A DNA stretch of 61,174 nt from contig NZ_AOIL01000070.1 in NCBI RefSeq assembly GCF_000337595.1, positions 147,692 through 208,865 on the forward strand, written 5' to 3'. Shown in pieces: positions 24,252-32,238 of the stretch (within the stretch, counting starts at the first letter, position 1; the number at the start of each line of letters is the position of its first letter). The DNA is from Natrialba taiwanensis DSM 12281. Its GTDB lineage: Archaea > Halobacteriota > Halobacteria > Halobacteriales > Natrialbaceae. The position numbers and the translations under genes were made by a program. The notes under the pieces are model-generated. The model had not been told where the DNA came from. It saw only the letters and a list, made by a program, of their open reading frames with translations, and made no database searches.

Positions 24252-25535
24252 ATGACAGCAGCCGAACCGACAACGGAATCGGAAATAGAGGAGGAGGAAA
24301 GTGCCGTCGAAACAGCCCGCCGCCAGCTCGAACGCGCAGCCGCCCATCTCGATGTCGACGAAGGCATCGTCGAACGGCTCCGCCACCCGACGAGCGTCTA
24401 CCGCGTCACGATTCCCCTCGAGCGCGATGATGGAACGCGCGAGATGTTCACCGGCTATCGCGCCCACCACGACAGCGTTCGCGGCCCCTACAAGGGCGGG
24501 CTGCGCTATCACCCAGCCGTCAACGAGGAGGAGTGCGTTGGGCTCTCGATGTGGATGACCTGGAAGTGCGCCGTGATGGACCTCCCCTTTGGCGGCGCGA
24601 AAGGCGGCGTCGTCGTCGACCCCAAGGACCTCAGCTCCGACGAAAAGGAACGGCTCACCCGCCGCTTTGCGGAAGAGCTTCGTCCAGTCATCGGATCGAA
24701 AACCGACATTCCTGCACCCGACATGGGCACCGATCCGAAGACGATGGCCTGGTTCATGGACGCCTACTCGATGCAGGAAGGCGAAACCGAGCCCGGCGTC
24801 GTCACCGGCAAACCCCCGGTCATCGGCGGCTCTTACGGCCGTGAGAAGGCTCCCGGCCGCAGCGTCGGTATCATCACCGAACAGGCGATCGACTACTACG
24901 ACTGGGACGTTACCGATACGACCGTTGCCGTCCAGGGATTCGGCAGTGTCGGGGCGAATGCCGCCCGCTATCTCGACGATCTCGGCGCTTCCATCGTCGC
25001 CGTCTCCGACATCGACGGCGCGATCTACGACCCGGACGGCTTCGACACGAACGACGTCGAAGACCACGACGAAACCCCCGGTATGGTCTCCGGCTACGCT
25101 GACGCGCAGTCTCTCTCGAACGAAGAACTCCTTGAACTCGACGTCGACGTGCTTATCCCCGCCGCAATCGGCAACGTGCTGACCGGCGAAAACGCTCGCC
25201 GCGTCCAGGCGGACATGATCGTCGAAGGGGCAAACGGACCCACGACCTCGACGGCGGGTCAAATCTTCGAAGAGCGCGATATTCCCGTCATCCCCGACAT
25301 CCTCGCCAACGCCGGCGGCGTCACCGTCTCGTACTTCGAGTGGCTGCAGGACATCAACCGACGCTCCTGGCGGCTCGAACGCGTCCACGAAGAACTCCAG
25401 ACGGAAATGCTGCGCGCCTGGGGGTGCGTCCGCGACGAGTACGACGCCCGCGATATCACCTGGCGCGATGCAGCCTACATCGTCGCACTCGAACGAATCG
25501 CCGAGGCACACGACGCCCGCGGCCTCTGGCCGTAA
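24252..25535 (+). CDS. gdhB: Glutamate dehydrogenase (GdhB-type)
   Basis: 427-aa Glu/Leu/Phe/Val dehydrogenase, interconverting glutamate and 2-oxoglutarate plus ammonia. The substrate motif '[12 protein letters not shown]' (Lys) and '[16 protein letters not shown]' are present, as is the Rossmann part '[17 protein letters not shown]' and the C-terminal '[16 protein letters not shown]'. Full family length with an acidic N-terminal 25 residues. It lies next to the orc1/cdc6 gene and has a paralogue at 29421. Confidence 0.95.
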
Positions 25536-25580: not shown

Positions 25581-25608
25581 CCGCCCCCACCCCCTGTTCA
25601 GACTGAAA
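25581..25608 (-). repeat. Origin recognition box (copy a)
   Basis: Read on the minus strand it begins TTTCAGTCTGAA and runs into a GGGGG-TGGGGG string. It lies downstream of orc1/cdc6. Confidence 0.7.
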
Positions 25609-25660
25609 GCGGCGCGAACCGCCCCGGGGTAGAACTCGACATACTCACGCGAGATTCTGT

Positions 25661-25688
25661 CTCCCCCACCCCCGTCGTTCAGACTGAA
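25661..25688 (-). repeat. Origin recognition box (copy b)
   Basis: On the minus strand TTCAGTCTGAACGA then GGGGGTGGGGG. It ends immediately next to the orc1/cdc6 stop codon at 25690-25692. Confidence 0.7.
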
Positions 25689-25689
25689 C

Positions 25690-26982
25690 TCACGAAAACG
25701 AGGAGAGGTCCGTCTCGATATCGCGCTTGTGCGAGGACCCGCCGGTATTCGCGAGCTGATCGTAGGCTGGTAACTCTTCGAGCGACGAGTCGCGTCGAAC
25801 CGCCTTGACGATGTGTTTCGGGTCCGTCACGAGCCGATGGAGGAGATAGCTCCCCTGCGAACGGCCACCGCCCGTCTTTTCTGACTCGATGACGCCGAGG
25901 AAGGCCTGTTCTTTGAGCTGTCGGTACAGACCGTTCTCCGTGATCGGATCGTTTGCAACCATCTCGCAGATTCCGACGTATCGCTGGTAGATTTCCCGCG
26001 TCTTGTACGTCTCGCGGTCACCGGTGATAATACGGCTCGCAAGCGAGTAGAGCGCGAGTTTTGCATGGACCGTCGCCCCGCTCGTCAGTTCTTCGATGCG
26101 ATTGATCTCGGCGACCTCTTGGGCCTGCTGGATGTGGCTCTCAGAGACGGTCTCCGAGCCCGTCCGCCGAGCGAGTTCACCTGCCTCCTTGAGAATCTCG
26201 ATTGCTTTTCGGGCGTCGCCGTGTTTCTTCGCGGCGAGGGCGGCGCAGAGTTCGATCGTCCCGTCCTCGAGAACGTCGGGCTGGAAGGCGTCCTCGCGGT
26301 TTCGCATGATCTCACGGAGCTGGGAGGCGTCGTAGGGGTGAAAGAACAGTTCGCGATGACCGAAACTGCTGTCGATGCGTTCGTCGAGCGTTTCGCGGTA
26401 CTGGACCTTGTTGCTGATGCCGATCACGCCGATGTAGGCGTCGGTTTTACGCGCTTCGCGAGCGCGGGAGAGTTGCATCAGGATGTTGCTGTTATCGAGT
26501 TTGTCGATCTCGTCGAGAATGATGATCGTCGCGTCGAAAAACGACTCCAGGATTCTCCAGATGTGTTGGTAGTACTCCATCGTCCCGACGCCGCGAAGCG
26601 GGATGTGGTCCTGGTAGCTCGTTTGTTCCGTGAGGTTGAGCGCGAGTTGTCGCGTTGCCCGCGTTTCCGTATTCGCCTCGGAGCAGTCGACGTAGAGGAC
26701 GCTACAGTCGATATCGTTGTCCCGAGCGGCATCCTGTGCTCGCGTCGCAACGTGGCGAGAGATGAGACTCTTTCCGGTACCGGTCTTGCCGTAGATCATC
26801 ACGTTGTTCGGCGGATCGCCGCGAGTGATCGCGCCGACTTCGGCAGCGACTGACTGAATTTCGTTGTCCCGGCCGACAATGCGATCCTCATCGGGAACGT
26901 GTCCGACGTGTAAGAGTTCTTTCCGATTGAAAATCGGATCGTGAGATTGAAAGAGCGGGTCCCCACCAGCCGTATCAGCCAT
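25690..26982 (-). CDS. orc1/cdc6: Orc1/Cdc6 family replication initiator
   Basis: 430-aa archaeal origin-binding AAA+ ATPase, loading the replicative helicase. Walker A 'GKTGTGKS' is at 65-72, Walker B 'ILDEID' at 155-160; a sensor region 'VIGISNKVQYRETLDERIDSSF' follows. The C-terminal winged-helix domain (about 330-410, 'YVGICEMVANDPITENGLYRQL') is the DNA-binding part. Box elements on both sides of the gene (25581-25688 and 27137-28291) are probably its binding sites. The promoter is directly upstream of the ATG at 26982 and has a box-like half near it, so autoregulation is likely. Confidence 0.97.
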   Translation of the reverse strand: MADTAGGDPLFQSHDPIFNRKELLHVGHVPDEDRIVGRDNEIQSVAAEVGAITRGDPPNNVMIYGKTGTGKSLISRHVATRAQDAARDNDIDCSVLYVDCSEANTETRATRQLALNLTEQTSYQDHIPLRGVGTMEYYQHIWRILESFFDATIIILDEIDKLDNSNILMQLSRAREARKTDAYIGVIGISNKVQYRETLDERIDSSFGHRELFFHPYDASQLREIMRNREDAFQPDVLEDGTIELCAALAAKKHGDARKAIEILKEAGELARRTGSETVSESHIQQAQEVAEINRIEELTSGATVHAKLALYSLASRIITGDRETYKTREIYQRYVGICEMVANDPITENGLYRQLKEQAFLGVIESEKTGGGRSQGSYLLHRLVTDPKHIVKAVRRDSSLEELPAYDQLANTGGSSHKRDIETDLSSFS

Positions 26983-27040
26983 GCTTCCATTCTGGAAGAC
27001 AGGTGTTATAAAACCAGGGGAAAGAATTCAGACTGATAAC
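26983..27040 (-). promoter_or_regulatory. orc1/cdc6 promoter with dyad and box-like half site
   Basis: On the minus strand a TTTTATAA box (27006-27013) sits 24-31 nt upstream of the ATG. The dyad CTTCCA-TTC-TGGAAG (26984-26998) lies between the box and the start. TTCAGACTGA (27026-27035), a half match to the origin boxes, lies just upstream of the TATA box. Both could let the initiator control its own gene. Confidence 0.55.
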
Positions 27041-27136
27041 GAACAGCAATGATAGAAATATTCCGAGATGAGCGTCAGATACCACCGTATAGCACGAGTT
27101 CGTGTTCGAGTTCTCGGAACCAGTGCTCCGAACGGG

Positions 27137-27160
27137 CCCGCCCCTGATTCAGAGTGAAAC
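27137..27160 (-). repeat. Origin recognition box (copy c)
   Basis: On the minus strand GTTTCACTCTGAATCA then GGGGCGGGC: the same box core, with a shortened G run. Confidence 0.7.
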
Positions 27161-27294
27161 GGGCGAAGGTGGGGATGGGTCACGACGGGTCGGTACCGAG
27201 CGTACCGTTGCGGTGGTCCTAAATAGAGCGATACGGCGAGGAGGGACGGATCGCCAAGTACGGATCACCAAGCGGACGAAACTGTGAGCCGTTC

Positions 27295-27795
27295 CTACTC
27301 GAACTGCCAGCGCGTCGAGGAAACCGACGCATCCAGACCGAAGCCGAAGACCGTCTCCGGGGTTACTTCGTACACCTCGTACGGTGGGTCCCCTGCAGTG
27401 GGAGCGCCAGCAGCGTAAAATGCACCGTCACGAATCTCAACTTCCCACTCGTATTTAGTCGCATACATATCGGCCGCGTCCTGGAGCGCGGTTTCGTCGC
27501 TCCGCTTCGCCGCCTCGCCTTCGATCACGAAGTGGAACGTGTCCGTTTCGGCCGCGAGACTGCAGAAGGGACCGGCTGTGAGATTCCCAACCTTCCGCGT
27601 GGCTGCTCCCGAACAGAAGTACATCGCGTCCGCGACCCAAACGGCGAGCAACGGCCGGACGTGCGGCCGACCGTCCGGATGCACCGTTGCGAGCCAGTAG
27701 TAATCGGCTGCCGCAAGCTGCTCGCGCGCATCCGCCTACGCAGTCGCGTTACCGTCTTTGAGGGGCTGTGTTTCCGGTTGTTTTCTTCGAGTCAT
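27295..27795 (-). pseudogene. Pyridoxamine 5'-phosphate oxidase family gene with an in-frame amber codon
   Basis: Reading from the ATG at 27795 (MTRRKQPETQPLKDGNATA) the frame stays open to 27295 except for a single TAG at 27736-27738, codon 20, followed by 'ADAREQLAAADYYWLATV' and 'HPDGRPHVRPLLAVWV'. The remaining 146 residues are a complete split-barrel PPOX/flavin-binding domain ('GAATRKVGNLTAGPF'). Relatives often have Trp near this position ahead of a helix like 'ADARERL', so TGG to TAG is the simplest change (inference). A GTG at 27684 could start a truncated protein. Either a recent pseudogene or a sequencing error; amber suppression is not expected here. Confidence 0.7.
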
Positions 27796-28076
27796 CGATG
27801 CTCACCATACTTTCTTCGGTCGCTACCCACAGGAACAGCGCGCCACACGGCAAATAGACGATAAAACGACGATAACCAGTGTGTAACCGCTCTGTCCAAT
27901 CTGTAACCGTTCTTTCCCCAGTTGTTCTTCCGTCCTAGTCTAGTTTTGTATTGTATGTTATGATACCAGAAATACTCGCCGAAAACGGTTCATCTATATC
28001 TCACACTCGTCCCCTCACCGAAACCGGCGACGAACCCCCCGCCTCTTCCACCCCCCACCCGGCCCTTGACCGAATA

Positions 28077-28092
28077 CACTCTGAATCGGGGG
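28077..28092 (+). repeat. Origin recognition box (copy d)
   Basis: CACTCTGAATCGGGGG on the plus strand, followed by TGCCCCTGG. The G run faces the inverted copy at 28217. Confidence 0.7.
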
Positions 28093-28216
28093 TGCCCCTG
28101 GTCGAGTACACCCGACGTATCGGTTCGGCAATTACTGCACCGGCTCTCACCCGCTATCACGTTCGAAAACAGGTACTGCTTACCGTGAGGATCGTCGATA
28201 GTTCACGAGAATACCA

Positions 28217-28237
28217 CCCCCGATTCAGAGTGAAAAC
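28217..28237 (-). repeat. Origin recognition box (copy e)
   Basis: On the minus strand it reads GTTTTCACTCTGAATCGGGGG, the same core as copy d, and faces it with a 124-nt gap. Confidence 0.72.
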
Positions 28238-28269
28238 GATTCGACGGACCCCCGCCTCTCACGCCGGCC

Positions 28270-28291
28270 GTTTCACTTTGAACGACGGGTG
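28270..28291 (+). repeat. Origin recognition box (copy f)
   Basis: GTTTCACTTTGAACGACGGGTG on the plus strand starts here (core with one change, short G run). It is the box closest to the citE-like gene. Confidence 0.6.
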
Positions 28292-29420: not shown

Positions 29421-30677
29421 ATGGTAGCAGACATCAATCCATTCGAGAGCCTCCAGTCGCAGATCGACGACGCGGCGGCGCACCTCGACATCGGCGACGA
29501 CGTCATCGAACGGCTCAAACACCCGGAACGAGTTCTCGAAACGAACCTCACGGTCGAACTCGACGACGGTGAACTCCAGCGGTTCAAAGCGTTCCGCTCG
29601 CAGTTTAACGGCGACCGCGGCCCGTACAAAGGCGGGATCCGCTACCACCCGAACGTCTCCCGCGACGAGGTCAAGGCCCTGTCGGGCTGGATGGTCTACA
29701 AGTGCGCCATCGTCGACATCCCCTACGGCGGCGGCAAGGGCGGTATTATCATCGACCCCGATGACTACTCCGAAAGCGAACTCGAACGCCTGACGCGGTC
29801 GTTCGCAACCGAACTCCGTCCGCTCATTGGTGTGGACCGCGATATCCCCGCCCCCGACGTGAACACGGGTCAGCGGGAGATGAACTGGATCAAGGACACC
29901 TACGAAACGCTCGAGAACACCACCGAACCGGGCGTCATTACGGGGAAAAACATCGCGAGCGGCGGTAGCGAGGGCCGCGTCGAGGCGACCGGGCGCTCGA
30001 CGGTCATCGCCGCGCGCGAGGCGTTCGACTACCTCGACAAGGACCTCAAGGACGCGACCGTGGCCGTCCAGGGCTACGGAAATGCCGGCTGGATCGCCGC
30101 CAAACTCATCGACGAGATGGGAGCCACCGTCGTCGCCGCGAGCGACTCGAGCGGCGGTATCTACAATCCCGACGGCTTCGATCCGGTTGCCGCGAGGGAC
30201 CACAAAAACGAAACCGGCAGCGTCGTCGGCTACGAGGACAGCGTCGAGGAGGTAACCAACGAGGACGTACTCACGATGGATGTCGATCTGCTCATCCCCG
30301 CCGCACTCGAGAACGCAATCGACCGCGACCTTGCCACGGACGTCACCGCCGACGTCATCTCCGAGGCCGCGAACGGACCGTTGACGCCCGAAGCCGACGA
30401 AGTCCTTCAGAAACAGGACACCTTCGTCATCCCGGACATCCTCGCAAACGCCGGCGGTGTTACCGTCTCGTACTTCGAGTGGGTCCAGAACCGCCAGCGC
30501 TTTTCCTGGAGCGAACAGCGCGTCAACGACGAACTCGAGACGCTCATCGTCGACGCCTTCGATGCGCTCGTCGATACCTACGAAACGTACGACCTCGACA
30601 ATCCTCGGACTGCCGCTTACGTCGTCGCAGTCGACCGCGTCGCCAACGCCTACGAGGAAGCGGGTAGCTTCCCCTGA
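29421..30677 (+). CDS. Glutamate dehydrogenase (second paralogue)
   Basis: 418-aa Glu dehydrogenase-family enzyme. '[14 protein letters not shown]' and '[16 protein letters not shown]' hold the catalytic Lys, '[16 protein letters not shown]' the NAD(P) site, and '[16 protein letters not shown]' the C-terminal core. It lacks the long acidic N-terminus of the first copy (24252). Haloarchaea commonly keep several such paralogues with different cofactor use (established); which direction this one runs is not readable from sequence. Confidence 0.94.
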
Positions 30678-30814: not shown

Positions 30815-31318
30815 GTGAGCATACGGGACCGACTCGATCACTATCGCGAAGAGGCCCTCCACAAGCTTACTGTCGCGATTCAGGAGGAACACACGCCCCA
30901 CGAGGTCGCCGCCAGTTTCGCCATCGGGATTTTCGTGACGGCATTGCCATCCGGTGGTCTCGGTATCGGCTTGTTCTTCGTGTTCAGCGCCCTGTGGTCG
31001 TGGATCTGCAAGCCGGCACTGTTCGCCTCCATCGCCGTCCTCAACCCGTTCGTCAAACCCGTCGTCTACCTTTCGAGTGTTCACGTCGGCGGCGTCCTCC
31101 TCGGCACCAGTCCGATCCGTTCGCAGGAAACGATAACCGAATCCGCCACCGCCACCGTTCACCAACTGATCGTCGGCAACGTCGTGTTCGCGACGGTGCT
31201 TGCGGCCATCGGTTACGTTATCGTTCGGCGACTGACGCGGCTTCACCGCCGCCGAGCGCAACGCTCGACCGATCGCTCGGTCGTCTCGACGATCCGTCGC
31301 ATGCTCCGTCGCAACTAA
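30815..31318 (+). CDS. DUF2062 family membrane protein
   Basis: 167 aa from the GTG at 30815. The first 35 residues form a charged helix (RDRLDHYREEALHKLTVAI), then 'SFAIGIFVTALPSGGLGIGL' and 'ALFASIAVLNPFVKPVVYL' are the DUF2062 hydrophobic core, and a third helix lies near 'QLIVGNVVFATVLAAIGYVI'. The tail is basic. Function unknown. It sits between the second glutamate dehydrogenase and a lipoprotein gene. Confidence 0.8.
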   Translation: MSIRDRLDHYREEALHKLTVAIQEEHTPHEVAASFAIGIFVTALPSGGLGIGLFFVFSALWSWICKPALFASIAVLNPFVKPVVYLSSVHVGGVLLGTSPIRSQETITESATATVHQLIVGNVVFATVLAAIGYVIVRRLTRLHRRRAQRSTDRSVVSTIRRMLRRN

Positions 31319-31416
31319 GGATACGGATACCACACGACGATAGCGTCCTGTTAGGAAATCGAGAGACAATCAGGGGACCAGTAAACACTTATCAACTGAT
31401 CGTTGATTGTGATACC

Positions 31417-32238
31417 ATGAAACGTCGAACGCTTCTGAGCGGCCTCGGTGTCGCCGGCCTTACTAGCCTTTCAGGCTGTCTGGGGCTCGTCGGCCTGGCA
31501 CGCCACAAAGCCTTGCCCGCCGGTGTCGATGCGTCCGTTCGCAACGATACCGGGTACGAGCAGACCGCAATCGACGAGTTCACCGTCGAGCGCGAGGTTG
31601 GCGTCAGTATCGCAAGCGAGACGGTCGTGATCACGAATTACATGACCGAACACGAGAAGGCGGTCGACATGGGTCCGCTGGGCGAGCAACGCGGGGCCGT
31701 CTTCATCGTCCTGACGACGCCGCAGGTCAACGCGCTCGGCTCGCAGTTCAATCCCGTCGAGGACATGTCCACCGACGAACTCGTCGAGTTGGTCGCGAGC
31801 AATTACGACGATATCGGCTCCGTGTCCTTCGTCGAGGAAACGTCGGTGACGGTGTTCGACCAGTCGACGACGCAGTCCAGATACACCGCCGAGGTGTCGT
31901 TCCAGGGACAGCCTGTCGATGTCGCGTTGCACGTGAGCGAGGCCATCGAGACCGACGACGATCTGCTCGTAACGGTCGGCGTCTATCCGAACGAATTCGA
32001 TTGGAGCGAGGAAGAACAGATATTCTCGCTGATGGACGGTGTCGTTCCGGATATCGACGAGGAGGCTGCTGGCGATACCGAGAACGGAACCGGCGAGTCG
32101 GACAGTGACGGTAACGACACCGAGACTGGCTCCGAGAGCGATACCGAGGGCAACGATACTGACACCGGTAACGGGACGGACGAAAACGGTGACAACGACG
32201 ACGACGACGACGGCGGCCTTCTTTCTGATAGCAACTGA
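31417..32238 (+). CDS. DUF6517 family lipoprotein
   Basis: 273 aa. The chosen ATG at 31417 gives 'MKRRTLLSGLGVAGLTSLSGC', a Tat-type signal with a twin Arg and a lipobox (LSGC), so the mature protein is lipid-anchored outside the membrane. The middle is a folded beta-rich domain ('EVGVSIASETVVITNYMTEHEKAVD'); the last 55 residues are a low-complexity tail of Asp, Asn, Gly, Thr and Glu. I place it in the haloarchaeal DUF6517 group from memory of its layout; function unknown. Confidence 0.7.
   Translation: MKRRTLLSGLGVAGLTSLSGCLGLVGLARHKALPAGVDASVRNDTGYEQTAIDEFTVEREVGVSIASETVVITNYMTEHEKAVDMGPLGEQRGAVFIVLTTPQVNALGSQFNPVEDMSTDELVELVASNYDDIGSVSFVEETSVTVFDQSTTQSRYTAEVSFQGQPVDVALHVSEAIETDDDLLVTVGVYPNEFDWSEEEQIFSLMDGVVPDIDEEAAGDTENGTGESDSDGNDTETGSESDTEGNDTDTGNGTDENGDNDDDDDGGLLSDSN

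Follow-up and report, generated by a model that had tools for sequence, protein, structure and literature searches.

Haloarchaeal replication origins of the general kind that adjoins an initiator gene, as well as insertions in them, have been described (PMC3528665, PMC4441112). The closest described systems are the orc/cdc6-adjacent origins of Wu et al. 2012 (PMC3528665), in which an orc1/cdc6 gene lies beside ORB-like repeats with a G-string and an AT-rich stretch. In-frame stop codons have been described separately. Many bacterial in-frame stops occur in genes with dN/dS < 1, and the single-nonsense cases in prokaryotes combine one derived stop with a remaining frame that is conserved (Belinky et al., PMC7918605). 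For archaea, a review of recoding gives selenocysteine and pyrrolysine as the sole demonstrated cases of stop read-through (PMC8211752).

Here, both kinds of system meet at one locus of Natrialba taiwanensis DSM 12281, within a stretch of 61,174 nucleotides (the window) from a 4.6 Mb draft genome of 70 contigs that is 97.85% complete. A gene of the PPOX family lies inside an orc1/cdc6-adjacent origin and is interrupted by one amber codon. It differs from the in-frame stops of PMC7918605 only in its setting, and the origin differs from those of PMC3528665 in that a protein gene fills the gap between its third and fourth boxes in three of the seven Natrialba genomes compared. Judged from sequence comparison, the frame is very probably a recent, ordinary nonsense pseudogene, derived from a PPOX gene that is patchily distributed and under weak constraint.

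A PPOX gene with one internal stop

The nonsense-disrupted PPOX (PNPOx_N) family gene occupies 27295..27795 on the reverse strand, 167 codons counting the terminal stop. It begins with an ATG at 27795 and ends with TAG at 27297-27295. The original prediction described this frame as open but for a single TAG, and translation bears this out: the sole internal stop is the TAG at 27738-27736 (codon 20), with zero further stops or frameshifts. The window is GC-rich and carries long antisense ORFs. The stop-free run 3' of the internal TAG, exactly 146 codons, has a probability of only about 0.009 on base composition alone, and it matches the Pfam profile PNPOx_N (PF01243) with E = 3e-16, the match covering positions 5-117 of the 120 in the profile. 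Together, these two results exclude a chance origin of the open downstream frame. The score of 60.2 bits, against a curated Pfam cut-off of 28.1, places the protein in the family by sequence. The gene is single-copy in the genome, where two other PNPOx_N genes, searched for as possible compensating copies, are also present.

The likeness to F420- or FMN-type PPOX proteins thus extends over almost the whole Pfam profile. More specific matches are weaker. The solved relatives, Rv2991 1rfe and 3f7e, are weak sequence matches, and the F420 subfamilies NCBIfam TIGR03618 and TIGR03667 fall below their cut-offs (41 vs 79 and 41 vs 125 bits), so cofactor and substrate are left unassigned. An AlphaFold model built from three sequences gives a strand and helix order that is plausible yet unreliable (pLDDT 44). 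Among the homologues, a PPOX protein of Candidatus Roseilinea (Chloroflexota; L016 5920-6447) is 53-55% identical and is nearer than most haloarchaeal PPOX proteins, which suggests transfer between domains.

Ancestral codon and age of the break

Intact orthologues exist in two sister species. N. aegyptia DSM 13077 and N. asiatica DSM 12278 each carry a 166 aa frame at the same locus inside the same origin, with the same start and the same terminal TAG. These genes differ from the taiwanensis frame in having TGG at codon 20, which makes their frames complete. Protein identity to the taiwanensis frame is 94% for N. aegyptia (codons 21-166) and 90% for N. asiatica (codons 22-166). A match to the gene is absent from the other four of the seven Natrialba genomes compared.

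A wider alignment covered nine homologues: the two sister proteins, those of the haloarchaeon G294 and Candidatus Roseilinea, and five from actinobacteria. The codon-20 column holds Trp in all nine and is one of only 17 invariant columns. Because this Trp is invariant, the TAG is, on the evidence of the alignment, one derived G-to-A change (TGG to TAG) on the taiwanensis branch. The frame therefore carries a derived in-frame stop relative to intact orthologues, the mark of a nonsense pseudogene. Both the comparison with an intact sister orthologue that had been proposed as a check and the suggestion that Trp was the ancestral residue have thus come out in favour of the original prediction.

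The age of the break was approached through branch counts, with N. asiatica as outgroup and about 377 non-synonymous and 121 synonymous sites. The taiwanensis branch has 6 non-synonymous changes (the stop included) and 5 synonymous ones, the N. aegyptia branch 5 and 4, and the N. asiatica path 17 and 19. All branches have N/S rate ratios of roughly 0.3-0.4, with small counts. These values point to a weakly constrained gene that has not yet decayed beyond codon 20, as far as such small counts can indicate. The similar ratio on the broken and the sister branch suggests that little time has elapsed without selection and that the break is young. In their constraint, the downstream codons cannot be told apart from those of the intact sister gene, and the small counts fit a young pseudogene or a still-translated frame alike.

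Alternative explanations

The original prediction offered two options, a recent break or a stop that is read through. The first is supported. Suppression or read-through of the codon-20 stop, with full protein still made, would account for a downstream frame that is fully open and has the same N/S ratio as the sister's, and read-through has been proposed as common in bacteria (PMC7918605). We consider it very improbable. TAG behaves as a normal stop here: it terminates the PPOX gene itself in three species as well as the adjacent HpcH/HpaI (aldolase) gene, and 10 of the 52 gene-like ORFs of the window end in it. Moreover, the internal stop is not conserved, the sisters having TGG. Pyrrolysine-type recoding of UAG was rejected. 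In a profile search of the genome, the best match to PylS scored 30.8 bits, far short of the cut-off of 178, and none of the 45 tRNAs found has a CUA anticodon, in a scan that is incomplete, as it also missed tRNA-Trp, presumably owing to a long intron. A related idea, that the codon is decoded at a low level or conditionally, without pyrrolysine, and tunes a gene inside a replication origin, is extremely unlikely. Read-through, if it did occur, would be unexpected as a form of recoding in haloarchaea; nothing that was found points there.

A shorter working protein could also arise by restart. The earliest candidate past the stop is the GTG of codon 38 (27682..27684, reverse strand), where predicted strand 1 ends in the low-confidence model; initiation from its first base at 27684 would be in frame and give 129 aa. 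This product would be missing the N-terminal helix, which is conserved and includes Trp20, as well as strand 1, which includes Trp34 (as placed by the model of pLDDT 44), and the GTG lies 18 codons past the stop, which makes a functional restart a very unlikely outcome. An error of sequencing or assembly, with TGG as the true codon, would suit a draft assembly of 70 contigs and the TGG found in both sisters. However, a single-base substitution in unique, one-copy sequence is atypical of short-read errors, and if the strain is among the haloarchaea of PMC4230888, as it appears to be, Illumina mean depth was 90x (range 13-188x). An error is accordingly improbable. A recent nonsense mutation in an otherwise intact gene is the reading retained below.

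The origin and its boxes

The claim that the frame lies in an origin region stands on both the initiator gene and the repeats. The orc1/cdc6 gene (25690..26982, reverse strand; Pfam Cdc6_lid, Cdc6_C and AAA) is 95-100% identical and in one piece in five of the six other Natrialba genomes, and in N. asiatica it matches in two overlapping pieces at 99% identity. The pattern TTCAGAGTGAA, with one mismatch allowed, has six matches in the 61 kb window against 0.44 expected, all within 25597-28282. These ORB-like boxes lie at 25597..25607 (box 1, +), 25678..25688 (box 2, +), 27148..27158 (box 3, +; about 137 bp past the 3' end of the PPOX gene), 28075..28085 (box 4, -), 28224..28234 (box 5, +) and 28272..28282 (box 6, -). 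With a related pattern, the order +, +, +, -, +, - is found in all seven Natrialba genomes, some palindromic boxes matching both strands. Between the PPOX start and box 4 lies an AT-rich stretch (27850..27999, 39-44% GC), a probable unwinding element, the core of which is similar by eye to the spacer in the four gene-less Natrialba origins. The region thus shows the arrangement of haloarchaeal orc/cdc6-adjacent origins: next to orc1/cdc6 lies an AT-rich stretch that ORB-like repeats surround.

Other features of the neighbourhood were also observed. The N. asiatica orc1/cdc6 gene (G002:C31:13865-15229; L023, L032) appears to contain about 25 codons duplicated in tandem and in frame, with query residues 263-286 matched twice and an open frame of 470 aa. 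Paralogues of a Glu/Leu/Phe/Val dehydrogenase flank the origin at 24252-25535 (+) and 29421-30677 (+) in all Natrialba compared. Further along, a 414 aa frame at 30994-32238 (+) aligns in two frames in both sisters, with the break near codon 116; either a frameshift in taiwanensis or one common to the sisters would explain the discrepancy.

Probable gain of the gene and its place in the origin

Box 3 and box 4 are 927, 953 and 1018 bp apart where the PPOX gene is present (three genomes) and 488, 515, 576 and 495 bp apart where it is absent (four genomes). The longer gap in gene-bearing genomes indicates that the gene sits within it, with box 3 on one side and the AT-rich stretch on the other. 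The spacers of gene-bearing and gene-less Natrialba are too diverged for the exact ends of an insertion to be placed. Among 391 haloarchaeal genomes, G294 alone adds a further close match, which lies between genes for an HflX-type GTPase and moaC, and its tested neighbours include no orc gene. Because this sole match sits elsewhere, without an orc neighbour, gain in the three-species group appears the likelier history.

The original prediction also held that a live gene here would be read through the boxes, which is borne out only in part. An intact frame does occupy the same origin position in the two sister genomes, but the gene itself contains no ORB-like box by pattern search of the window, and box 3 would be reached only if transcripts pass the stop at 27295. 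Reading of the roughly 240 bp past this stop revealed no run of at least four T, and for this reason PPOX transcripts might run across box 3 toward cdc6.

The proposed sequence of events is as follows. A small PNPOx_N split-barrel gene, probably from a source outside the genus, would have entered the orc1/cdc6 origin, with box 3 to one side and the AT-rich element to the other, in the ancestor shared by N. aegyptia, N. asiatica and the taiwanensis genome, and would then have been kept under weak purifying selection. On the taiwanensis branch, one G-to-A change turned Trp20 (TGG) into TAG. Translation would stop after 19 residues, with no start codon giving a complete domain, and the product would be lost, probably without a fitness cost. 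The gene seems dispensable in the genus, since it is missing from four of seven Natrialba and has close matches in only 4 of 391 Halobacteria. The lesion has left the origin boxes intact.

In summary, this locus offers a clean case of recent gene decay: the lesion is single, the ancestral codon is known, and intact sister genes occupy the same position. The locus further indicates that this origin can accommodate a protein gene of about 500 bp among its boxes while their order stays the same.
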